Below, piece by piece: positions 3,421-61,800 of a stretch of DNA of 64,000 bases; position 1 is the first letter of the stretch, and every line of letters starts with the position of its first letter. A model generated the notes under the pieces. The model saw only the letters and a list, made by a program, of their open reading frames with translations. It did not search any database and was not told where the DNA came from. This DNA comes from Trachythela sp. YZ-2020 (Eukaryota; Cnidaria; Anthozoa; Malacalcyonacea; Clavulariidae): assembly GCA_016169945.1 (NCBI GenBank), contig JADLSH010000395.1, positions 1,188,501-1,252,500 of the forward strand. Direction: 5' to 3'. Both the position numbers and the translations under genes were made by a program.

Positions 3421-6400
3421 TCAGAGTTTTGAAAAAGTTGGTTCTTCTTTATTTATTCCCGCTTGAACAGCTTTTAGGATGTCTTCTGTCTGTAACATGC
3501 TCATGTTCCAGCTTGCCTGAATAAATCAGATAATACATTAATAAGAAGTGCGTATCTTTAATGTGTTGATTTCAAGAGAAGATGAAAAGTAGTTTGTAAT
3601 AAAAGCCTATACCTTTGATCTAAATTTTAATTGTGTATAGTTAAAGAAACTATAGACTTACCATATACTTCAAACTTTCATCAACAGGGTGATCTCTTGA
3701 GTAGTTCAAATTATGTTTTGTTCCACTCACAGCAATTGGACTCATTTTAGCAATATGACTTGCTAAATCTAGGGCCCCTTTTATCAAACTCTCTCGGTCT
3801 TGAAATATACGACTGCAACGAAATAAGATAACAACTGAGATATGACTACATCTTGTGCAATCTATAGGGAAATATTGCAGAGCCCCTTGGGCCGAACATT
3901 GCCCAAGGCTCCCGGTCTTCTATAGCCGTGCCCGTTTTGAAAGAATACGCGCTGGAAGGCCCAATACTCATATTTATTATTTTCTATTTTGTTTAAAAAT
4001 TTAGAACGCGACTAAACAGGTCCGCCCGTAGAGGGCAAAAATTGTTCCCATGCAGAAGGGCGAATCTGCGAATTCATGACCTGCGAATTATGCTAGGTCT
4101 TCTCACTTCCAGCATCTCCCCCACGAAGCTTCTAATTCCAGTGCAACAAGCTGTGGGGGAGCATGGAGCTAACCTACATTTACCCAAAATTGGCCCTAGG
4201 TTGAGTTTCTTGTGTTGCGGGTCTGGCAACTTGCGGAGTATTTACAGCCTCCTATACAGGCAGCTATAGGGCAAACTATTACACTGCAAACAAACAAAAC
4301 AATGCAACAATTATAAATTATAGTACTTTATCGATGTTTTTAGTTTTCGTATGTTTTCTTACCTGACCAAACCAAAGCTTTTTGCTTCTTCAGACATAAA
4401 CTTTCGACTTGAATAACACAATTCTCTGACCAGACTGTGCAGATAAAGAAAAAATCATGAAACAAAAAGATTTCGAAGACAGTTTCTAGAGCGAACTCAG
4501 GCTCGTCAGATAAATTAGCTGGCAGACCCGGGTGCGGGTTGGGCCCGTGTGTAAAATTTGGTATTATGCAGTAATGATGAAATACATGCAGTAAAAGTGG
4601 GGAGCCCAAAGTGTAGGTGATTTTCTTACTTAAATCTCAATGCAGAAAATTTTGAATCAAGTTTTACTAAGAATTGAATCAAATTGAAAATAACACTACA
4701 GTACACCTTTCATTTCCAACAATCTTGGGTAATCGCTGTAATGTTCCAATATCTGCGGCTAACCCGAGCTCAACTTCCTACATAAAGATAAAACAGACAA
4801 AATGTATTATCTATCACGTTAATAAAACGTAAATATGGATGTCGTTTGATTTCTATGTTTTTATCTTTTTGCTCGCTCGCTGAGTAAAGTTCTCTCGAAA
4901 AATACATTTATATTCCTTTGAATCCTTGGGTCGTAGACATCACAACATGGCACAATTTGAGGGTAAATTAAAGTCAATTTTTACATTACTTACAGCTAAA
5001 GTTAACCGTATTCCTTCAGCGAAGGAATTGAATCGTAGAGATCACAATTGTTTGAAGCATGAAATTTAACAGCAAAAATTGCATCTGAAATTGCTTCTTT
5101 AGAATGACGTTCAAAGCTCGAAACGTTAGATTAATGAATAATGGTTAAATTAGAATATTAGAATAATTGATGGTAAAACTGTGTAGAGGCAGTTGTTTAC
5201 CTTTATTTGAAACCAAGCATCAGACGTACACCAGCGTATATCACATGCACACACCATATCTACACCTCCTCCAACACAAGCTGAATGAATGGCAGCAATC
5301 ACTGGCTGAGGACATTTCTCTATCACTGAAAATGATTCTTGAAGTTGTAATATTGTATTTCGCATATTGTAAGCTCTCCTGGAGACGTCCTGATCGTCTT
5401 GTTGTGACATAAGCAATGAGGCAAAGTCCATCAAATCTAATCCTGAAATGTGTAAAATATACTAATATAATTTAATTTAATGAATTTAGTATAAATGATT
5501 ACACAAGGTGTTATAAAACATTATACAAGGTTTTATATACTACAATACATAAAGGCAGTGAACGGTACAAACCTACATACATGCTGATGCATGTACAGTA
5601 ATCAGATATTTTTGCGATCAGGCCCACGTATCTGTTACTTATTAACAAGCCGTAACCAAACAAGGATTAAGCCCCGTACAGACGAGAAAGTTTTCCTTGA
5701 CAAGTTCCTTGTCGAGTTTACTTGTTCGTAGTCCCGTTGCGATGGTATAATGTACCACGTAAACGTTCAAAAACAACCTGAATATTTAAGCACAAGTTTC
5801 TATTACCTGCAGTAAATATTTTCCCAGCACCAGATAAAACGACAGCTCTGCATTCAGTATCAATTGCAATTTTATTAAAACATATCACCATCTCACTGAA
5901 AATAAAGCCAGGGATATTAATTATTATTACAAAATCCCATTGGCGCGGTAGCTATACACAATTGGTATCGAACCTCTCTAATACGTGCACCAAAGTAGGG
6001 ACACAACAAAGTGTTTGTATTAGAGAGGGAATGTCGGCTGAATAATGTATGCATGCTTGTAGGCATGAATAATGTATGACAGCTTTCGTTGCAGGTTGTG
6101 GGTGCTTTCTATATCCAACTTTTATTAATGGTAACTTAACACAATTTGAATTGAATAGTTGAGCACGTTGAGAGAAATCGTTAGTAAACGTGATGGATTG
6201 TTTTGAGTGTCATTGTTAACAGCACAAGTTTGCCACCTGTTTGGCAACAGTGAATTACATTTTATCCATTAACGTACTTTCATGCAGGTTATGGTCTATT
6301 AAATAGTATAATTTAATTATTTGCTCCAACATTTTTTGTTTTAGGTATCAGAAACTTGAAGAAGAGCGAATTAAAACAGATGCAGATAGAAAATGAAAGG

Positions 6401-9400
6401 AGGAAAGAGGAACGACAACATGAACTCAACATGTTACGTATGATTTTGTTCCCGCAACAACCTCCACATGGTGTTTCAAATATCAATGCTTTCAACAGTC
6501 CCGTTTTCTCCTATCCAATTCCAGCATACCATAATGTTGATACCGACAATGATAGCACATGCACAAATGGTGATGCAACGTATTTTAAACTGTAAAGATA
6601 AACCTAAATATCGGAGACACAAAAATACTTACAGTATTTTTACATTTGAGTTAATTTAAGTAGAAACTATTGAACTTGTTGACATATTGTTGTGTTGTTC
6701 TTTTTGGTATACCGTATGTATATTCCACGTTGTATTAATGGTAAGGTGAAAAGGCAAGTTTTAAGAGAAATGCTCGGAAAATCTCATCAAATGCCACAAT
6801 TTGCTCTTCAAAAAAGGTTGGTTTCCTCCCAGTTGGGCAAAAAGTCATTTTTTCGAATTTCTAAATGTTATGCAAAATACAAGATGCAAGAACAACATCT
6901 ATTAATGAAGGTACTTCCATATTTACTCGTTTACGAAACCTGGGGAATCGACCGAATGTATTTTCCACTGTCATTCGTGCGCGTGTAAGGTTGAAATTAA
7001 GCTTTGGCTGGTTTTCGGAAGCCTCGTTTCTGGGATATCCCTTAAGTAACCATGAAAGGAGGGGTAAGCTGGATCATGACCAACAAGGAATGGTGGTATA
7101 TCCACAAATTTCCTTTACGAGATCGTGAGGGAAAATGTGTTGCTCGCTTCCCTTTCTAAAAATTTCGGAGTTCGAAAAAACTCGAGCGTCATGGACGCTT
7201 CCAGGCCACCCAATCACAAAATCCCGATATAAATAATTGCAATCGGTTACTGCTTGGATGAGAATGCTGTGGAAACCTTTACGGTTGACATATTCTATAT
7301 GATTATCCACAGGTGCCAGTATTGGTATACGCGTGCCATCGATTGCACCGGCACACACGGGGAACCCCCATCTTTCTTCGTAATCCTGAAGAAGCTGATG
7401 TAATTCATCTACTTTCGGGAAAGTGACTGCCTTCGGAAATTGCTTCGTTATGGCACAGCACACTTCTTTTACACACTGGCAAGTAAATGATCGCGATACA
7501 CCAAATAGATTCCCAATTGTCCGATACTCGGCAGTGGAGGCCAGGTAATACAATGTTAAGGCAAGTCGTCGTTTGGCAGAAACAGCTTCACGCATAGGTG
7601 TATTATTACGACATATATCACGCTGAACTTTCTCGAGGATGTATGCAAAAGTTTCTTTTGTCATTCTAAAATTAGCATACCATAGCTCGTCACAAAATGT
7701 TTCATCAACCATGTCAAACCAAACCAACGATCGTGGGTGTATCCACAAAGTCCTAATTCGTGGACGATGTAAGTATGATGATACAGCTTCAACTCTACGT
7801 TTGTTTATTTTATCTCGATGTATCCGAGATGAATAGGCACATTCTGACCACATATTCGGCACGATATTTCTTTGTTTTGTTCCTGGTAGATTGTTCCAGA
7901 TCTTTGGCGCAGCTGCTGCAAAAGATCTATCCCCATGAGTACGCTTGAACTTACTGTAGCTGTTCAGTCTTGCAGAGATATACCAGTATTAGACCGCATG
8001 TTACAGGGTGGACTCTGTCTAATGTTGGAGCTACTGTAGATTGTGATAGCCTTAAGGTGATCACAGCAATTTTATAACAGATTCGAAACCTCACAGGCAG
8101 CCAATGCAGCCAATAGTACTGGCGTTATATGGCAGATTCTGGGTGTATAAGTAAGGAGTCGTGCTGCAGTGTTCTGTAAACGCTATAACTTGGAAAGATG
8201 AACAGCTGGTACACCGTACAGGAGACTATTGTAGTAGTCAATGCGTGCCATTATCACTGTTTGCACAAGCAATTTAGTGGTTTCGTTCGATAAGAACTTC
8301 CTTATTTGTCTAATGTTATACAGATGGTAAAAGACTGATTGACATATCTTAGTAATGTGGGTAATCATCTTAAAGCGTCCATGACATGAAAATATCGAAT
8401 TGATTTTTTTCGACAAAATGAAATATCTATAGGTATAAAATAACCTGCCAAAATTTCAAATCAATCTGTTTTATACTCTTTGAACAACAACGAGTTAAAT
8501 GTGCGAATTTCTTTTGCGCGGTCAAAGAAGGTATCATATGGCCTGTTACGTAGGCGTATGGACATATCACACTGTTCTATATTTGCAACTATGGCGGCGA
8601 TACAGAAAGCTCCTGTAAAACGAATTATGCACAATTCCCTTATGGACAAAATTTGTGAGGAGACATCGCGCAAATTTCTCACCCACACAATATTCTATTT
8701 CGAGCCTTCGTGTTATCCGCAGTGCCATTCTCTGGATATCCTAGAACATCTAAGACCAAAGGCGAGGTATTTAAAGCCAGACGCTGTTCTCACAATCGAT
8801 GCTATTCCTCGTGAGATGGATAAACCAAAATCAACGCCAGTTTCAAAGCGTGAAAATCGACTCAATAAATAGCCGTGTGTTAATATGTTTATGAAGTTCT
8901 GATTGTTTGTGTTCTGTTCTCTTGTGTTGCTTATATGATTAAAGATTTTGATTTCTTAATCAAGTATGCTTTCAATTGACATGAGCTATTGGCACTATTG
9001 CATTACCAATAGTTAGGTGTCCTATATTAACTTTATTTAGTTGTTGCCAAGTGCCAATTAAAATTATCTCTGTTTTGCCCTCATTAAACTTTAGCTGGTC
9101 CACCGCCATCCATTTACTGAAGTCTTCAATACAATCCTGCACAGCAGTCACTGCGTCCATCTGGTTGGCACCAGAGTCCGGCTTAAAAGACAGAAGGGCT
9201 GGTTATCGTCTGCATAAGCGTGTACATCTGGAAGATGGGCCTCAATGACATCAAACAACTAATGTGAATAACAGGGGTCCGAGGCAAGAGCTTTGAGGGA
9301 CACCATAAGATAGATCAAATCTTTTGGAGTAACAGCAGCGCAGTACCAGTTATTCCAAATCGAGATTCAAGTCGTTGAAGTAACACAAGATGATCAGAAG

Positions 9401-45062: not shown

Positions 45063-46944
45063 CTATGTTGGCTTAAAATAGTCCTTAATCTGCATTTGTC
45101 GCCGCGGTGCATTGAGTTTCAAAGCACAGAGCAAATCATTTGTCTTAGATATTGATTGAGCTAGCTCCTCATATCCGTTATAAATTGCAAAATTTCGCAG
45201 ATCCTCAGCATGCCCAATTGCCTCCGTCAACGACTCCAGTTCAGGTTCTTGTAAATCTCTGTCATATTCGTCATCGCTTACTGAGTTCGCTGTATCTGAC
45301 GAAGCGGATAAATCATTAAGATTGTCTCCCAGCAATTCCTCGCGAACAACTTCCCTCCAGTTCGGGTCAGAATTGTCGATGTAGCCAGGACAAACTTCAA
45401 GATCGTCTTCGGTCGATATGTACTCTTCTGCAGTACAAGGCACTTCGAATCTGCTCAGAAGTTCCTGAAGATCTTGCAGTTCCTCTCCTTCAAAGGGATC
45501 GTCTTCGATAGCGATTTCTTGCGGAGACAATCCCGTCTTCTTGAAGCATCTTTGGATTGTATCAGAGGACACTTCGTCCCAAGCCTGTCTTCCCATTCGA
45601 TGGACATAAGAAGATTCACAGATTTCACAATGTCGCTCGCACTCTTGGACCCGTCGACTTGACCACATACATAGCGAAGCAATCGCTTTTGTACTTAACT
45701 TTCCAGTTGGCAATGATACCAGCGTCCAGTGGTTGAGTCTTGGATGTGGTATTCTTTGGCAAAAACACAATGTTTATGTTCGAAAAGCTGTCCTTCAAGC
45801 TTTGTGGATGACAAGGGCATTATCCATAAACAGCAAAATACGTCTGTTCTTTCGCTTCAATTGACGATTAAGTTTTGACAAAACTTCAGTCATAATACCC
45901 GTGTTCATCCAGGCTTTGGCATTTGAAAAATAGTTGCATTTGGACGGACGCTTGTTGTCCTTTAAATGCTTGAAGCATCGCGGTTTTGCAGACTTCCCGA
46001 TAACAATGGGATCTTCCTTATCCCCTGCGGCATTAACAAAAAATGCCCACGTGATGCGCATCTTTGCGTTTTTGCCGCCACTGCATCTTTTTCCTCTTTC
46101 GCTGAGAGTCTTCTCAGGAAGACCACGCCAAAACTTCCAGTTTCATCCATGTTCCACACATCTTCTTCCTTCCATCCTCTGGTGATTTCTCCTGCCCTTT
46201 CACTCCAGCTTTCAACTGTTTCCGGTCTCACGCCTCCTCTTCGCCTGCCACGGTCATATTGCATATGTTATGTTGTTTCTTGAATTTTTCCAGCCAACCA
46301 TTTGATGCTGTAAAACCTATCATTTCTAGCCTTTCTGCTATTACTAGGGCCTCTTCTTGAAGCATTGGTCCGGAAACTGGTATGTTAGAGTTTCTACACA
46401 TGGTGTACCACTCCCACACGGGTTTGTTCACATCCGAATATTTGGCTGTGCGCTGTCGCTTTTGCTGACTTCGTTCATCAGTGCTTTCGTGCAAAGCAAG
46501 TATAGATGCCTTGTTTTTTATGATGGTTTGGATCTGTGTTCTTCCAGTTTGAAAGTGTTCTGCTATTTTTCTGGCTCCGAGATCAGGGTGATCTTTAGCA
46601 AATCTGATTACGGCAACTTTTTCAGACAGGTCAAGACATTTGCGCTTGTTCGTGAAGGTTGAGCAGCGATCGGTTGGACGGCTGTTACTGTGGCCGGTCT
46701 TCAGCTTTGTTTTAACACCAGCTTTACATGTTGCCTGTTCTTTTATGTTCTCGGTTGCATCTTTGCAAGAATGACAAAAGGACACACTTGAGCCAGCTTT
46801 CCAACCAGGTGTCTCTTCAGGAGCGGCAGTGGAACAGGTAGCTGACCTGTTACATACAGCTTTTCTGCAACTCAAACATTCGTAATTTGTTTCACTACCA
46901 CACGTTTGACAAAATGCGGTACTCGTCAACTCAGACATTTCCAA
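45063..46944 (-). pseudogene. Tigger/pogo transposase (CENP-B HTH, DDE_1), frameshifted
   Basis: Successive frames on -: 46944-46228 has an N-terminal Cys-rich region (FCQTCG...CLSCRKAVCN, likely a zinc-binding addition), a psq-like helix-turn-helix (LSEKVAVIRFAKDHPDLGAR) and the CENP-B/Tc5 second DNA-binding domain (WEWYTMCRNSNIPVSGPMLQ). 46264-45962 has the first DDE Asp (WNMDETGSF). 46061-45795 has the second ([12 protein letters not shown]). 45770-45063 continues with an acidic C-terminus. Frames overlap, showing several indels rather than introns. Inactive as it stands. Confidence 0.92.
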
Positions 46945-48120: not shown

Positions 48121-51100
48121 TTAAGAACAACATTTCATTGTTCCAGTAAGTTGTCTTGCCCTGTGGCATTTCAGACAAACTGATTTCCAAGTCTGCGGAT
48201 TTTCTTGGTCAAACACGGTTAATGTTGCAGAATGATAATAATCCAGAACACGTGATTTGAAGCTCTGAAATGACAATTCTGGTTTACGCAGCTCATCTGG
48301 AAGGCAATTCCACACACGCGATACTCGTACGATATAGCTGTTCTGATGACATAGCGTTCTGACTTTAGGAATGTTGTATTTAGTAACAGAGTTATTAGAT
48401 GATCGTAGATTTATGGTTGAAGTCAGAGTGTCAATTTCTTCCGGTAGGATATGATCAGTTTTAATCAAGCCATGTGTGCATTTGAACAGGAATAAAATGT
48501 CAAGATATTCGTGCCAGTAACAGAGGGGTAGCATCTTCAGCGTAGCGAGTCTTGTTTTGTATGGTATGTCGGTTTGGAATGGTAAAGACAGTACGAATTT
48601 GGTCGCTCTGCGTTGTATGCGTTCGAGCTCCATACACATGGTGATAGTTTGTGGACACCACACTTGTGAGGCATAAGCAAGATGAGATCTCACAAGTGTA
48701 AGGTAGAGACATCGTCGGGTATTCACATTTCTAACCTTGACGGTAGAACGTTTAATCATACCAAGCAGGCGGTTGGCTTTCGTGACTTGCTCGTAAATAT
48801 GCGTGTTCCATCTAAGGTCTGAACAAACCGTCACTCCGAGGTCTTTCTGGGAGGAAACATGCTGCAAAGTTTTACCGTCGACTATGTATTCAGCAACAAG
48901 AGGATGATGCTTTCTCGTAATGCTAAGTACTTTGCACTTTTCGGAATTGAACTTTAGCCTCCAACGTTGAGCCCAATTCTCCACGTTACTCGCTTCCGCT
49001 TGAAGGACATTGGCGTCAATCGGTGATTCGACAACTGAGATGCATTTTGTGTCATCAGCAAACAATGAAACGTCAACAGTCGGTGATGTTATTGATTCGG
49101 GAAGGTCATTTATGTAGATCAGAAACAGGAGTGGTCCTAGTATTGATCCTTGCGGAACGCCGGAGGAAACTGGAAGAGTTTCTGAAATCTCGCCATTGAC
49201 TAGTACACGTTGTTGTCGTCCTGATAAATAACCTTTAAACCACGTTAAAATATTGCCCTTAAGCCCAAATCGACGAAGTTTCGTTAAAAGAAGATTATGG
49301 TCCACAGTGTCAAACGCTTTAGCAACATCGAAATACAAGACATCTGTTTGTTTCCCTGAATCCAGGTTTTGACTGATGCGGTGTAGAACGGAAAGGAGCT
49401 GACCTGTGCAAGACTTTCCTCTCAGAAAACCATGCTGTGCAACGGATATCATGTGCTCAATATGACCAATCAAACGATTGTAAACGCATCGTTCAAAAAC
49501 TTTGGCAACAACGCACATAAGAGAAATCGGTCTGTAATTCTCAACAAAACTCTTGTTTCCTTTCTTATGAAGAGGGATGACGTTGGACAGTTTCCATTCT
49601 GATGGTAGGCAGCCGTGCTTTAAGGATTTGTTGAAGAGACATGTTAACGATGGTGTGATAGAGTGCGCGCATTCTTTTAGTAAGCGGATTGGTATATTAT
49701 CTGGACCAGATGCTTTGTTAGGATCGAGGTAATATAGAACATCATATACTTCACTTGGGTCTAAAATAATGTCAGAAATAGTCTCTTCGCACATTGGTGT
49801 AGTGGGGCTTGATTTCGCATCACCTTCGGTTAGAAAAACTGAGTGGAAATATTCATTGAACATGTCTGCAGCTTGCTTTTGAGTTTTGGAATCTACGCGT
49901 GGAGAGTCTGCGTTGCCTGTAGCGGTGGAAACTTGCTGTGGAATTCTGCTGGATTTAGTGGTTGTTTTAAAAAATGACCAGAACAATTTTGGTTTGGATG
50001 GTAGAGTTTCGCTTAGGGAACCAAAGAATATTTCACGACTTTCTGTAATCATTTTCTTGGATGTACGGCGGAGATTCTTGTATTTCTCTACAAGTGCAGT
50101 AGATTTTGTTCCACGACGGATTTTTCGCCGCAGCGTTTCCTTCTTTTTAATCACTGATTTAATTTCGCCAGTCAACCATGGTGGATTATATCTTCCTTTG
50201 ACTGTCTTTGTTGGAATACATTGGTCAGCTACAGCAAGGAAAGTGTCTCTCCATAAATTCCAGTTCTCGTTAATGTCCGACGTGGATGTAGAATCACAAA
50301 ACTCGAATTCAATCGTTTCAAAAGTACGGTTCAATTTTTCAAAATCTGCTCGGTTGTAATCATAAACCGATCTTTTGAGTTTGTGGGAAGGTATTACTGC
50401 ATCTTGAAACTCGAAGAGTAGGCACTTGTGGTCGGAAAACAAATTGAAATTGGTTGGATCAATTACTTCAATATTAGTAACGTTGTCGGGAATGTTTGTC
50501 ATGATAAGGTCAAGAACGCTAGTTTCTCTAGTTGGAGTGAAGATCAGTTGACTTAAGTAATGGTCGGATAAGGTGTTGTAGAAAAGTCTTTCGGATTCAC
50601 CGGTTGGGATTACCATGCTTTCAGACCACGAAATTCGGGGGAAGTTAAAATCACCAGTGATGATAATTTTCTCGTAAGTATCCATAACGTTATCTAAGAA
50701 CTTCTTAAACGAGAGAAGCCATTTTGACGAGGAGTTCGGAGGTCTGTAGCAGCAGACAACAAGGATTCGTGCACTGTTCGTAACACATTCAACGCAAACG
50801 ATTTCTAGTTCAGCGTCTAATTGACTGAAGACTACTTGTTTGGTTTCCGTAAAAGAAGATTCTTTCGTAGCTATGAGTACGCCACCGCCAGTTTTACATT
50901 TACGGTCGACACGAAAAACATTGTAATCTTGAGGTAATATTTCTACATCAAAATGTTTATCGGATAGCCATGTTTCAGTGAGAAAAACAATGTCTACTTT
51001 CTCCGAGTATATAAAATCTTGAAGGCTTGAGTTATTTGATATTATATCTCCATCGGATGATCTATGCAGGCTAAACAAGCTTCGCGTATTCCAGCTCAAA

Positions 51101-51459
51101 CAGCGAAAAGTCTTACGACTACACCTGTTGGGATTACTTCGATTATTTACGACAGATGAACGTTGTTCGAGTTCAGCAGATGAAATAACTGGACCAGGAT
51201 TTATTTCCACATCGTTAGATAAAATAATTAACATCAATGGCAAAGAAGATCTTTGTAACAATAAAAGTCCGTTTACAAATCGATGAACTGAGAGCAAAGT
51301 TACATGTCTCCTAACACGACGAGCTCGATAAGAACACGGCGGTCCAAGGGTCTTCGTTGCTGCATAGAACAAACTAATGTGACTTTCTTTGGTATTTTGA
51401 ATTCCACGTAAAACCAACCACAGAAAAACAATAACGTAGCTCAATTTCGGGAAAATCAT
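48121..51459 (-). CDS. Intact LINE ORF: 2A motif, AP endonuclease and reverse transcriptase
   Basis: A single 1112-aa frame without stops. Residues 1-25 are hydrophobic (SYVIVFLWLVL), and another hydrophobic stretch (LLLLQRSSLPLMLIIL) directly precedes DVEINPGP (residues 83-90), a 2A ribosome-skipping motif that would release the N-terminal peptide. The endonuclease follows: SWNTRS (Asn124), TETWL (Glu162), YRPPN, ITGDFNFP (Asp270), LIMTN, SDHKCL (Asp343, His344). The RT has SGPDNIP, YRPISL, YFDVAKAFDTVDH, SGVPQGSILGPLLF and SLFADDTK (Asp802, Asp803). The C-terminus has RSHLAYASQVW and a final Cys-rich tail (CLKCHRARQLTGTMKCC). Every catalytic residue is present, so this copy may be young, though the 3' UTR looks truncated by the MITE at 47968. 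CR1/L2-type clade. Confidence 0.95.
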   Translation of the reverse strand: MIFPKLSYVIVFLWLVLRGIQNTKESHISLFYAATKTLGPPCSYRARRVRRHVTLLSVHRFVNGLLLLQRSSLPLMLIILSNDVEINPGPVISSAELEQRSSVVNNRSNPNRCSRKTFRCLSWNTRSLFSLHRSSDGDIISNNSSLQDFIYSEKVDIVFLTETWLSDKHFDVEILPQDYNVFRVDRKCKTGGGVLIATKESSFTETKQVVFSQLDAELEIVCVECVTNSARILVVCCYRPPNSSSKWLLSFKKFLDNVMDTYEKIIITGDFNFPRISWSESMVIPTGESERLFYNTLSDHYLSQLIFTPTRETSVLDLIMTNIPDNVTNIEVIDPTNFNLFSDHKCLLFEFQDAVIPSHKLKRSVYDYNRADFEKLNRTFETIEFEFCDSTSTSDINENWNLWRDTFLAVADQCIPTKTVKGRYNPPWLTGEIKSVIKKKETLRRKIRRGTKSTALVEKYKNLRRTSKKMITESREIFFGSLSETLPSKPKLFWSFFKTTTKSSRIPQQVSTATGNADSPRVDSKTQKQAADMFNEYFHSVFLTEGDAKSSPTTPMCEETISDIILDPSEVYDVLYYLDPNKASGPDNIPIRLLKECAHSITPSLTCLFNKSLKHGCLPSEWKLSNVIPLHKKGNKSFVENYRPISLMCVVAKVFERCVYNRLIGHIEHMISVAQHGFLRGKSCTGQLLSVLHRISQNLDSGKQTDVLYFDVAKAFDTVDHNLLLTKLRRFGLKGNILTWFKGYLSGRQQRVLVNGEISETLPVSSGVPQGSILGPLLFLIYINDLPESITSPTVDVSLFADDTKCISVVESPIDANVLQAEASNVENWAQRWRLKFNSEKCKVLSITRKHHPLVAEYIVDGKTLQHVSSQKDLGVTVCSDLRWNTHIYEQVTKANRLLGMIKRSTVKVRNVNTRRCLYLTLVRSHLAYASQVWCPQTITMCMELERIQRRATKFVLSLPFQTDIPYKTRLATLKMLPLCYWHEYLDILFLFKCTHGLIKTDHILPEEIDTLTSTINLRSSNNSVTKYNIPKVRTLCHQNSYIVRVSRVWNCLPDELRKPELSFQSFKSRVLDYYHSATLTVFDQENPQTWKSVCLKCHRARQLTGTMKCCS
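51190..51213 (-). other. 2A translational recoding motif DVEINPGP
   Basis: Encodes Asp-Val-Glu-Ile-Asn-Pro-Gly-Pro in the LINE ORF, fitting the D-x-E-x-NPG-P consensus in which the ribosome skips the Gly-Pro bond. 2A-like motifs at the N-terminus of non-LTR retrotransposon ORFs are documented in several animals. Efficiency here is not testable by eye. Confidence 0.88.
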
Positions 51460-57528: not shown

Positions 57529-57710
57529 TGCCAGTGTGGGTAGAGTATATAAAACTACCTGAAAAATACAATAAGAACTTCGACGTTTCGAGCGAAGGCC
57601 CTCGTCTGGAAGTTAGTACCTACTAACGTCGAAGTTCTTATTGTATAAGAACGTCGAAGTTCTTATTGTATTTTTCAGGTAGTTTTACACAACAGTCAAC
57701 CGCCGTATTA
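57529..57710. repeat. Ribozyme-bearing inverted repeat (class C)
   Basis: ACTACCTGAAAAATACAATA and GAACTTCGACGTT occur at the left and in reverse complement (twice) at the right. The left part holds the hammerhead-like motif at 57576-57614. GGTGCCAGTGTGGGTAGAG at 57531 is shared with 25770, showing the same repeat family flanks the block in the acetyltransferase intron. Confidence 0.7.
57576..57614 (-). ncRNA. Hammerhead-like motif, class C (position 4 is A)
   Basis: On -: AACTTC, then CAGACGA, stem II GGGC/GCUC with CUUC loop, then GAA, ACGT, C, and GAAGTT closing stem I with AACTTC. All elements of a hammerhead are in place except that CUGANGA reads CAGACGA, as in the copy at 30906-30943. 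The four-base palindrome ACGT leaves no loop for stem III, so folding would need an RNA dimer. Confidence 0.5.
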
Positions 57711-57810
57711 AGTATACATAATACTACAATTGGAAAAAATGAGTTTTCTGGCGAATTAATCATCATGCTAATTATACTGTATATATATATATATATATAT
57801 ATAGTCAAAT

Positions 57811-57855
57811 CTGCAGACATGCATGTTTCGCCGTTCAACGGCTCGTCAGTGCAGC
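57811..57855 (-). ncRNA. Hammerhead ribozyme, class A, copy 1 (-)
   Basis: On -: stem I CUGCA; core CUGACGA; stem II GCCGU-UGA-ACGGC; core GAA; stem III palindrome ACAUGCAUGU; cleavage triplet GUC; stem I UGCAG. All invariant hammerhead positions are present. Self-cleavage would fall after the GUC. The short palindromic stem III is typical of genomic type-I hammerheads that act as dimers. Confidence 0.9.
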
Positions 57856-57973
57856 TTGTAACGCAGTATATATATATATATATACGTGTAGGTTTAGGTC
57901 TACGAAACGCAAAGAGTGCTCGACAACATATAGTTAGAGCAAATTATAGATTTTCGCTTACCTCAAAACTTGT

Positions 57974-58093
57974 CTGCAACAGGCTGTTTCATCTGTAAAA
58001 GAATCATCAGGCAGTTTTTTTGTGTTTTTTCAGGCAAAAACTGCCTGATGATTCTTTTACAGATGAAACAGCCTGTTGCAGACAAGTTTTGAG
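57974..58093. repeat. Perfect palindrome with class B hammerhead-like arms, copy 1
   Basis: 57962-58014 (from CTCAAAACTTGTCTGC) is the exact reverse complement of 58041-58093. Each arm (- 57974-58014, + 58041-58081) reads CTGC, CTGATGA, a 13-base segment with a weak 3-bp stem, GAA, ACAGCCTGT, T, GCAG: hammerhead order with an intact core, GUU as cleavage triplet and CTGC/GCAG as stem I, but a U-U mismatch at the base of stem II. Copies recur at 59035-59142 and 60105-60352. Confidence 0.5.
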
Positions 58094-58308
58094 GTAAGCG
58101 AAAATCTATATATATATATATATATAGGGTGTCTACTAGCGTAATGCAAAGCTCACTTCCCTTGTGGTCGTTTGAGCAATCTGGCTCCGTGACACTTTGT
58201 GCATGTCCATAGATGCGTTTATGTCACCGTGTTGTACCACATGCGCTTGGTGAGAGTAAGCTCATGTGTATAAATACGGTGGTCATCTCGTGTATAGACG
58301 TATACCAA

Positions 58309-58353
58309 GCTGCACTGACGAGGCGTTGGACGCCGAAACATGCATGTCTGCAG
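58309..58353 (+). ncRNA. Hammerhead ribozyme, class A, + copy 1
   Basis: CTGCA, CTGACGA, stem II GGCGT-TGG-ACGCC, GAA, ACATGCATGT, C, TGCAG. Compared with the - copies the second base pair of stem II is G-C instead of C-G, a compensatory change that preserves the helix, and the loop is TGG instead of TGA. It ends a diverged monomer (about 58120-58353) oriented head-to-head with the - monomers. Confidence 0.92.
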
Positions 58354-58389
58354 ATTGTACTATATATATATACATATATATAGTCAAAT

Positions 58390-58434
58390 CTGCAGACATG
58401 CATGTTTCGCCGTTCAACGGCTCGTCAGTGCAGC
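58390..58434 (-). ncRNA. Hammerhead ribozyme, class A, - copy 2
   Basis: Identical 45 bases to the copy at 57811. Lies 37 bp from the + ribozyme, separated by a TA-rich spacer. Confidence 0.92.
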
Positions 58435-58654
58435 TTGTAACGCAGACTTCGTATTTATACACCATACTCTTGCCCTCACCAAGCGCATGTGGTACAATAC
58501 TCAGACACGTGCGCATCCAGACATGCGTGAAGTGTCTTGGGGCCAGAGTGCTCAAACGACCACAAGGAAGTGAGCTTTTACATTATAGCTTATTAGCCAC
58601 CAATTAACCTCACAGAGTGCTCAACAACACAAGTGAAGGAGCATATAGTCAAAT

Positions 58655-58699
58655 CTGCAGACATGCATGTTTCGCCGTTCAACGGCTCGTCAGTGCAGC
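58655..58699 (-). ncRNA. Hammerhead ribozyme, class A, - copy 3
   Basis: Identical core. The distance to copy 2 is 265 bp and to copy 4 is 283 bp, so transcripts would be cut into monomers of those lengths. Confidence 0.92.
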
Positions 58700-58937
58700 T
58701 TGTAACGCAGTCTAGATGCGAGTGACTTCGTATTTATACACCATACTCTTGCCCTCACCAAGCGCATGTGGTACAATACTCAGACACATGCGCATCCAGA
58801 CATGCGTGAAGTGTCTTGGGGCCAGAGTGCTCAAACGACCACAAGGGAAGTGAGCTTTTTGCATTATAGCTTATTAGCCACCAATTAACCTCACAGAGTG
58901 CTCAACAACACAAGTGAAGGAGCATATATAGTCAAAT

Positions 58938-58982
58938 CTGCAGACATGCATGTTTCGCCGTTCAACGGCTCGTCAGTGCAGC
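58938..58982 (-). ncRNA. Hammerhead ribozyme, class A, - copy 4
   Basis: Identical core; first ribozyme met by a - strand transcript of the left 1.07-kb block. Confidence 0.92.
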
Positions 58983-59034
58983 TTGTATATACATATATAT
59001 ATATATATAGATTTTCGCTTACCTCAAAACTTGT

Positions 59035-59142
59035 CTGCAACAGGCTGTTTCATCTGTAAAAGAATCATCAGGCAGTTTTTTTGTGTTTTTTCAGGCAAAA
59101 ACTGCCTGATGATTCTTTTACAGATGAAACAGCCTGTTGCAG
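59035..59142. repeat. Palindrome with class B arms, copy 2
   Basis: Same palindrome as 57974-58093: arms 59035-59075 (-) and 59102-59142 (+), identical in the hammerhead-like segment. Confidence 0.5.
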
Positions 59143-59375
59143 ACAAGTTTTGAGGTAAGCGAAAATCTATATATATATATATATATATATATGGGTGTCT
59201 ACTAGCGATAATGCAAAGCTCACTTCCCTTGTGGTCGTTTGAGCACTCTGGCTCCGTGACACTTTGTGCATGTCCATAGATGCGTTTATGTCACCGTGTT
59301 GTACCACATGCGCTTGGTGAGAGTAAGCTCATGTGTATAAATACGGTGGTCATCTCGTGTATAGACGTATACCAA

Positions 59376-59420
59376 GCTGCACTGACGAGGCGTTGGACGC
59401 CGAAACATGCATGTCTGCAG
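59376..59420 (+). ncRNA. Hammerhead ribozyme, class A, + copy 2
   Basis: Same as 58309-58353, with the same covarying stem II. Confidence 0.92.
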
Positions 59421-59456
59421 ATTGTACTATATATATATACATATATATAGTCAAAT

Positions 59457-59501
59457 CTGCAGACATGCATGTTTCGCCGTTCAACGGCTCGTCAGTGCAG
59501 C
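59457..59501 (-). ncRNA. Hammerhead ribozyme, class A, - copy 5
   Basis: Duplicate of the copy at 58390; core unchanged. Confidence 0.92.
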
Positions 59502-59724
59502 TTGTAACGCAGACTTCGTATTTATACACCATACTCTTGCCCTCACCAAGCGCATGTGGTACAATACTCAGACACATGCGCATCCAGACATGCGTGAAGT
59601 GTCTTGGGGCCAGAGTGCTCAAACGACCACAAGGGAAGTGAGCTTTTACATTATAGCTTATTAGCCACCAATTAACCTCACAGAGTGCTCAACAACACAA
59701 GTGAAGGAGCATATATAGTCAAAT

Positions 59725-59769
59725 CTGCAGACATGCATGTTTCGCCGTTCAACGGCTCGTCAGTGCAGC
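59725..59769 (-). ncRNA. Hammerhead ribozyme, class A, - copy 6
   Basis: Duplicate of the copy at 58655; 268 bp from copy 5, 283 bp from copy 7. Confidence 0.92.
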
Positions 59770-60007
59770 TTGTAACGCAGTCTAGATGCGAGTGACTTCG
59801 TATTTATACACCATACTCTTGCCCTCACCAAGCGCATGTGGTACAATACTCAGACACATGCGCATCCAGACATGCGTGAAGTGTCTTGGGGCCAGAGTGC
59901 TCAAACGACCACAAGGGAAGTGAGCTTTTTGCATTATAGCTTATTAGCCACCAATTAACCTCACAGAGTGCTCAACAACACAAGTGAAGGAGCATATATA
60001 GTCAAAT

Positions 60008-60052
60008 CTGCAGACATGCATGTTTCGCCGTTCAACGGCTCGTCAGTGCAGC
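60008..60052 (-). ncRNA. Hammerhead ribozyme, class A, - copy 7
   Basis: Duplicate of the copy at 58938; core unchanged. Confidence 0.92.
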
Positions 60053-60104
60053 TTGTATATACATATATATATATATATAGATTTTCGCTTACCTCAAAAC
60101 TTGT

Positions 60105-60352
60105 CTGCAACAGGCTGTTTCATCTGTAAAAGAATCATCAGGCAGTTTACAAGTATCGAAAGAAATGACCGTGTGGGTGTGTGGGAGACAATGTGTGCAT
60201 ACATGGCTTTGTTTGCGTTGTTTACGCGATGCATGCACACATTGTCTCCCACACACACCCCACGCCCCGGCAGGAAGCATATAAGCGGTCATTTCTTTCG
60301 ATACTTGTAAACTGCCTGATGATTCTTTTACAGATGAAACAGCCTGTTGCAG
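60105..60352. repeat. Palindrome with class B arms, copy 3, with a different hairpin at its centre
   Basis: Arms 60105-60145 (-) and 60312-60352 (+) match the other copies, but the short loop is replaced by a ~165-bp inverted repeat (TTACAAGTATCGAAAGAAAT ... complement) holding TGTGGGAGACAATGTGTGCA. The sequence outside (60370-60440, TTTGCTCTAACTATATGTTG) is the reverse complement of 57883-57950, so the entire cluster is bracketed by an outer inverted repeat. Confidence 0.75.
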
Positions 60353-60599
60353 ACAAGTTTTGAGGTAAGCGAAAATCTATAATTTGCTCTAACTATATGT
60401 TGTCGAGCACTCTTTGCGTTTCGTAGACCTAAACCTACACGTATATATATATATATGTATAGGAATACGAGGCAATCACTTTTTCTCTAGAACTCAAAGA
60501 TGGATGGAAGAGACGTACTCGGGAAGAGGGGGAGTACCAAATTGTGTACTCCAGTGATGATTTTCTCAATAGTCATTGTGAAGCCCACATCCCTCCGAG

Positions 60600-61580: not shown

Positions 61581-61669
61581 CCCTTGCACAATAATGTATA
61601 ATGCATTTCCGAAATTAATGGACTGTGTAATAATTATGTGCTGTAATTAATTAGTAAACAAGTATAGTT

Positions 61670-61800
61670 AACATTAACATTAACATTAACATTAACATTA
61701 ACATTAACATTAACATTAACATTAACATTAACATTAACATTAACATTAACATTAACATTAACATTAACATTAACATTAACATTAACATTAACATTAACAT
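61670..61800. repeat. (ATTAAC)n hexanucleotide array
   Basis: About 21 perfect tandem copies. It stands downstream of the 3' end of the - strand LINE remnant (61801-63700), the place where L2/CR1 LINEs carry a short tandem tail. Confidence 0.95.

Follow-up and report, generated by a model that had tools for sequence, protein, structure and literature searches.

A nest of small non-coding hammerhead ribozyme units, probably non-LTR retrozymes, in the cnidarian Trachythela sp. YZ-2020

A stretch of 64,000 nucleotides from Trachythela sp. YZ-2020 (contig JADLSH010000395.1, positions 1,188,501 to 1,252,500; hereafter the window) contains a nest of small non-coding units, about 2.6 kb in all, that we consider likely to be metazoan non-LTR retrozymes. 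Nine type I hammerhead ribozyme (HHR) motifs lie at 57811-60051, seven identical ones on the minus strand (subfamily A-) and two on the plus strand (A+), and all nine are present as an earlier note on this DNA had described. The units resemble published retrozymes in having a type I HHR with a full core (9/9), in forming tandem repeats within the 150-450-bp range, in being non-coding and in having a GC content below 50%. Corals, jellyfish and anemones are published hosts of such elements (PMC7229834, PMC4918200; here and below, cited papers are represented by excerpts).

Nine hammerhead motifs in duplicated arrays

Each of the nine A motifs is 44 nt long and follows the layout CTGCA-CTGACGA-stem II-GAA-ACATGCATGT-C-TGCAG. 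The invariant positions and closed stems claimed by the earlier note were recovered in 9/9 (5-bp stem I, CUGACGA, 5-bp stem II, GAA and C17), as was the ten-base palindrome ACAUGCAUGU that serves as stem III. The word 'canonical' suits the complete core and stems but is a generous label, since the loopless palindrome leaves only 3 bp and a UGCA tetraloop in the monomer.

The pattern CTGACGAN{8,30}GAAAC matched the window 10 times against 0.10 expected, nine of the matches being the A motifs; the tenth (4482-4509) was absent from both stem-aware scans. When CTGANGA, GAAA and three stems were required and one stem II mismatch was tolerated, the stem-aware scan of the 64-kb window returned 15 motifs; over 60 dinucleotide shuffles it averaged 0.17 and never gave more than 2. 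All 15 were found between 57811 and 60352, the nine A motifs together with six of a second kind (subfamily C). Given these two excesses over expectation, the nine motifs are not explained by chance. Model R1, built from single copies of A-, A+ and C and run at E 5 or less, gave 23 matches: the 15 motifs, 7267-7312 and seven weaker ones including 57578-57612. The match at 7267-7312 (17.5 bits, E 0.017) is without CUGANGA, lies inside a transposase ORF and was discarded.

A covariance-model search, the check put forward with the earlier note, gave no Rfam family at its gathering score. At a loose threshold RF00008 (a type III model) overlaps 9/9 motifs, at 19.2-27.8 bits, all below its cut-off of 48.5. 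The loose-E Rfam matches (n = 116) were led by microRNA precursors, one of them at 48.4 bits where 76 is required, and were ascribed to inverted repeats and TA tracts. No match to the exact HHR pattern was found in viral and genome contig collections, nor to the 23-nt block (see below) or the C motif in the viral contig collection, the window's own genome possibly being excluded from these searches. A 17-mer from the 38-nt block matched two contigs and was taken as chance.

The spacing of 265-283 bp holds for four of the six same-strand minus intervals (265, 283, 268 and 283). The remaining minus intervals measure 579 and 519, and the plus pair is 1067 apart. The four monomers (265, 268, 283 and 283 nt; GC 46.6-47.2%) occur in two arrays, each in the order HHR, 283-nt monomer, HHR, 265/268-nt monomer, HHR, and the arrays are duplicates of each other. 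They belong to a tandem duplication of ~1.06 kb; the alignment of its two copies has 1059 matching columns, 2 mismatches and 9 gap columns, of which 5 fall within a TA tract. Because the two segments are tandem duplicates the copies are not independent, and a count of nine is inflated. Without the duplication there are a solo minus HHR, one plus unit and one minus array, from which we infer that the nine motifs reduce to about three insertions, or independent witnesses. The duplication itself may be an assembly artefact.

As the earlier note had it, no protein is encoded: there is no ORF of at least 150 aa in 57811-60052 and no Pfam match above cut-off there. Two BBS7 Pfam matches in the arrays (16 bits against a cut-off of 28.2) were taken as chance. 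TTTT is absent from the 605-nt minus array, too weak a signal at 0.056 in mononucleotide shuffles. A recurrent element, TTGAGCACTCTG (at most one mismatch), occurs 10 times in 58172-59975 and at one other place in the window (29323), against 0.56 expected; there are two per full A- monomer, and a near-match is found in the C arms too.

Table 1 Features of the hammerhead nest, in positions of the window
Feature	Position	Strand	Remark
Degenerate minimal HHR, like PLE type	57576..57614	-	stem-aware scan
Solo HHR, subfamily A-	57811..57854	-	stem-aware scans; C17 at 57816
Outer inverted arm, 151 nt	57867..58017		partner 60309-60459, 150/151 complementary
Tandem duplication	copy 1 57945..59005, copy 2 59006-60075		head-to-tail
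Subfamily C HHR-like, hairpin 1	57974..58014	-	stem-aware scan, model R1
Subfamily C HHR-like, hairpin 1	58041..58081	+	stem-aware scan, model R1
HHR of plus unit 1, subfamily A+	58310..58353	+	stem-aware scans; C17 at 58348
HHR, A- array 1, 3' end of array	58390..58433	-	stem-aware scans
Monomer between cleavage sites, 265 nt	58395..58659	-	
HHR, A- array 1	58655..58698	-	stem-aware scans
Monomer, 283 nt	58660..58942	-	
TATAAATA box	58731..58738	-	15 nt past 23-nt block, 40 nt ahead of HHR stem I
23-nt common block TTGTACCACATGCGCTTGGTGAG, candidate PSE-like element	58754..58776	-	
38-nt block common to A- and A+	58821..58858	-	
HHR, A- array 1, 5' end of array	58938..58981	-	stem-aware scans
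Subfamily C HHR-like, hairpin 2	59035..59075	-	stem-aware scan, model R1
Subfamily C HHR-like, hairpin 2	59102..59142	+	stem-aware scan, model R1
HHR of plus unit 2 (tandem duplicate)	59377..59420	+	stem-aware scans
HHR, A- array 2 (duplicate)	59457..59500	-	stem-aware scans
Monomer, 268 nt	59462..59729	-	
HHR, A- array 2	59725..59768	-	stem-aware scans
Monomer, 283 nt	59730..60012	-	
HHR, A- array 2, 5' end of array	60008..60051	-	stem-aware scans
Subfamily C HHR-like, hairpin 3	60105..60145	-	stem-aware scan, model R1
Separate foldback (MITE-like) insertion, loop of hairpin 3	60147..60310		palindromic, TTACAAGTATCGAAAGAAATGACCG ...
Subfamily C HHR-like, hairpin 3	60312..60352	+	stem-aware scan, model R1

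Unit ends, subfamily C and a degenerate hammerhead

The minus array starts with TACAAG, 6 nt before stem I, and the solo HHR with CTGCGTTACAAG, 12 nt before stem I. Projected onto the full-length unit these starts fall at TATA+34 and TATA+28, and on the 265/268-type unit at +20 and +14, each uncertain by a base or two because the flank is TA. The plus unit starts at another point. All three A units end 3' at ACTATATA and run into (TA)n, the plus unit and the minus array lying tail to tail over one TA tract; the outermost C arms also adjoin TA tracts, with different preceding letters. Nine of the window's 16 TA tracts of at least 10 nt lie at 57770-60460. No target-site duplication is readable at these junctions, which fall inside TA tracts. 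The TA ends would be explained if UAUAUA annealed to TA targets that had been nicked, and equally if the tract grew out of the element.

The six diverged HHR-like motifs of subfamily C, absent from the earlier note, are arranged in three head-to-head hairpins and share the layout CTGC-CTGATGA-TTCTTTTACAGAT-GAA-ACAGCCTGT-T-GCAG. The copies are identical and thus amount to one independent sequence. When the plus arm of hairpin 3 (60312-60441) was aligned with the A monomer, the score was 40 with several gaps, against 26 for the best of 500 mononucleotide shuffles. The alignment spans the HHR's GAA, the cleavage site and ~60 nt more, up to GAGCACTCT; the CTGATGA half of C, which falls outside it, scored just 12. 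Judged by this alignment, subfamily C is a probable diverged relative of A. Its stem II opens with a U-U mismatch, a feature shared with the axolotl HHR_Amex2 (PMC7229834), and no HHR was seen in the predicted monomer or homodimer folds of C.

The remnant at 57576-57614 (9.5 bits, E 3.5 in model R1) was likewise missing from the earlier note. It reads CAGACGA, so that the CUGANGA core is broken, and GAAACGTC leaves its stem III without a loop. By eye, it is surrounded by a fold-back region (57541-57690) with the repeated phrase TCGAAGTTCTTATTGTA, possibly an end fragment of a Penelope-like element (PLE).

Conserved blocks and RNA structure

Alignment of A- (283-nt monomer) with A+ (unit 2) gave 171 identical columns out of 218 ungapped, with identity runs of 38, 23, 17, 15 and 13 nt. 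The 17- and 15-nt runs are the HHR; the others are the 38-nt block, TTGTACCACATGCGCTTGGTGAG and GTGTATAAATACG. A run of at least 38 arose in 1 of 5000 column shuffles and the sum of the top four runs in none of 5000. Just 5' of the 38-nt block, the 283-nt monomers and the plus units carry an octamer-like TAATGCAAA and the 265/268-nt monomers TAATGTAAA; the octamer likeness was chosen by eye. The distance to the TATA box is 126-128 nt from the octamer-like box and 14-15 nt from the 23-mer in 6/6 units (three of which are duplicates of others), and the TATA box precedes HHR stem I by 40-41 nt in four units; in the 265- and 268-nt monomers this distance is 26 nt.

We take this order of blocks (octamer-like, 23-nt, TATA) to resemble that of snRNA promoters. 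On the strength of the sequence we tentatively suggest that the retrozyme may carry its own internal snRNA-type promoter, with an octamer-like box, a PSE-like block and a TATA box placed shortly before the HHR. Against this, TATAAATA has 23 sites in the window, 6 of them inside A units. HHR satellites offer precedents in a schistosome Pol III promoter and a newt snRNA promoter (PMC2220036). According to the excerpt of a 2020 review, retrozymes appear to lack promoters (PMC7761336). The literature yielded nothing usable on cnidarian PSEs. There is about an even chance that the 23-nt and TATA blocks reflect the RNA structure of a circle rather than a promoter. The two share one helix in the consensus fold (columns 124-144 with 152-173; 97.7% of cells paired), but 14 of its 18 pairs are invariant and none is compensated, so that conservation tells neither way, and an RNA structure explains neither the near-constant spacing nor why units begin close to where transcription might plausibly start. 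The blocks at near-constant spacing, together with the TA-tract ends, appear to go beyond existing retrozyme descriptions in the excerpts, newer promoter work being possible.

The hammerhead fold of one motif was predicted at -12.5 (A-) and -11.9 (A+) kcal/mol against MFE values of -15.0 and -14.4, and homodimers using the ten-base palindrome at -41.7 (A-) and -40.5 (A+) kcal/mol, tertiary contacts not being included in these energies. The monomer MFE fold differs from the hammerhead, with a stem III pair probability of about 0.01. In published assays most invertebrate retrozyme HHRs cut in monomeric form, and those of amphibians act mainly as dimers (PMC7229834), so the A HHR might cleave in either way. 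The predicted 283-nt circle reached -91.4 kcal/mol (z -2.88; 0/150 shuffles as low; the 283-nt monomer was the one of three distinct monomers shuffled), and the partial plus unit was about as stable as its shuffles (z -0.97; 30/150 as low). The three predicted circles are 61-63% paired, less than the 'above 70%' of PMC4918200.

The earlier note had taken a compensatory swap in stem II as evidence for selection on RNA structure. The swap is real and the reasoning fair, yet it concerns one pair and one event. Between A- and A+, 2 of 56 consensus pairs are compensated (stem II pair 2, CG to GC, and one internal hairpin pair, AU to UA) and 5 are broken in the plus rows; 233 of 500 shuffles had as many compensated pairs, and 233 likewise as many further pair types. 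For the percentage paired, the cells changed on both sides and the covariation score, 3 of 500 shuffles did as well in each case, and the consensus structure outscores all six slid versions, in a set of five closely related rows from which the tested structure was itself derived. Taken together, these comparisons lend selection on RNA structure little support.

Origin, mobilisation and known systems

The retrozyme interpretation of the earlier note was supported in part: the type I HHRs, the tandem non-coding 265-283-nt monomers and their GC content stand, and the selection argued from the swap and the nine independent copies are not supported in that form. That the units are instead terminal fragments (pseudo-LTR pieces) of Penelope-like elements strikes us as distinctly improbable. 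A degenerate minimal PLE-type HHR does lie ~200 bp away (57576-57614), and the tandem minimal HHRs found in PLEs may cleave in dimeric form (PMC7761336). The minimal type without helix III nucleotides fits that remnant only; A and C have helix III, and in the A motifs it consists of 2 bp following the A-U pair and a tetraloop, as described for invertebrate HHRs (PMC7229834). Moreover, six-frame translation of 55-64 kb shows a single RVT_1 match, part of a LINE with an APE-type endonuclease, and no PLE gene was seen in this general Pfam scan.

An ordinary satellite or microsatellite, with arrays made by DNA duplication and the ribozyme a fossil without present use, is also unlikely, and is partly compatible with a retrozyme origin. 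The plain 1.06-kb tandem duplication and the location of the units in TA microsatellites would suit it, but it sits poorly with an HHR core intact in 9/9 motifs (about three independent witnesses), with the presence of both orientations and a solo HHR, and with identity between subfamilies that is concentrated in blocks.

As retrozymes, the units would be transcribed into RNAs that fold type I HHRs and cut before UGCAG to give 265-283-nt RNAs, with neighbouring HHRs probably cutting as a pair through the palindromic stem III. A host ligase would close the released RNAs into circles, and a reverse transcriptase supplied by a PLE or a LINE would return the RNA as DNA to (TA)n targets. Priming could occur where ACUAUAUA, which the RNA carries close to its cleavage site, anneals to the primer end. 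The sequence itself shows the motifs, monomers, subfamilies, duplication and TA junctions; cleavage, HHR pairing, circles, priming and mobility are what we infer here. Tandem growth by DNA duplication, seen once at this locus, requires no RNA step and counts against this scheme. A combined scheme, in which the element's own promoter starts the transcript, the HHR cuts it, transcripts or circles prime on (TA)n via UAUAUA and insertions begin near the start site, is conceivable but rather doubtful.

The earlier note named a nearby LINE as a possible mobiliser. Within 55-64 kb the sole RVT_1 (Pfam, six frames) lies in frame behind an APE-type endonuclease, which identifies that element as a LINE; its nearness does not identify the mobiliser. 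A second ORF (48121-51459; 1112 aa, uninterrupted, with endonuclease and RVT_1 domains) we take to be a CR1-like LINE, possibly recently active judging by its sequence. Among the best 120 of its 225 relatives, the first named by organism were from the anthozoans Nematostella (40% identity) and Dendronephthya (38%), at ranks 13 and 14, which would by themselves point to a probable anthozoan host; the 12 ranked higher, without organism name, reached 74% identity. Elsewhere in the window, an ORF at 7074-7862 has a DDE_Tnp_4 transposase domain and is presumably Harbinger-like, an ORF at 46228-46944 has Tc5/CENP-B-like DNA-binding domains, and 61668-61800 is a perfect TTAACA hexamer array of 22.2 copies. 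Retrozyme authors regard Penelope-like elements as strong mobiliser candidates (PMC7229834), and no conserved motif reveals which element mobilises retrozymes, according to the excerpt of the 2020 review (PMC7761336).

The closest known systems are the retrozymes of Acropora millepora and Nematostella vectensis, likewise short tandem non-coding repeats (150-450 bp) with type I HHRs and a GC content below 50% (PMC7229834, PMC4918200). The monomers here are longer (265-283 nt against 220-240 in A. millepora), the junctions are TA tracts where Nematostella has readable target-site duplications (15 bp), and the head-to-head hairpin pairs and promoter-like blocks are unlike the cnidarian retrozymes described in those excerpts. 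Amphibian HHR satellites and axolotl retrozymes also have a weak, palindrome-capped helix III and dimer cleavage, and an snRNA promoter was reported for newt satellite II (PMC2220036, citing Coats 1994); they differ in their 330-350-nt repeats and vertebrate hosts, and loop-loop contacts are described for them. Minimal PLE HHRs share the dimer logic and resemble the 57576-57614 remnant, whereas A and C keep helix III, A lies in short monomers and a PLE gene was not found within 55-64 kb. The plant LTR retrozyme NbRZ1 of N. benthamiana has a promoter and a transcript cut by the element's own HHR (PMC12029980), but plant LTR retrozymes have type III HHRs, LTRs, PBS and PPT and ~700-bp repeats (PMC7761336).

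In kind the locus is ordinary, cnidarian retrozymes being already known, and as an example it is compact and informative: it gives a testable promoter layout, an idea of how priming may work, and related HHR subfamilies side by side.
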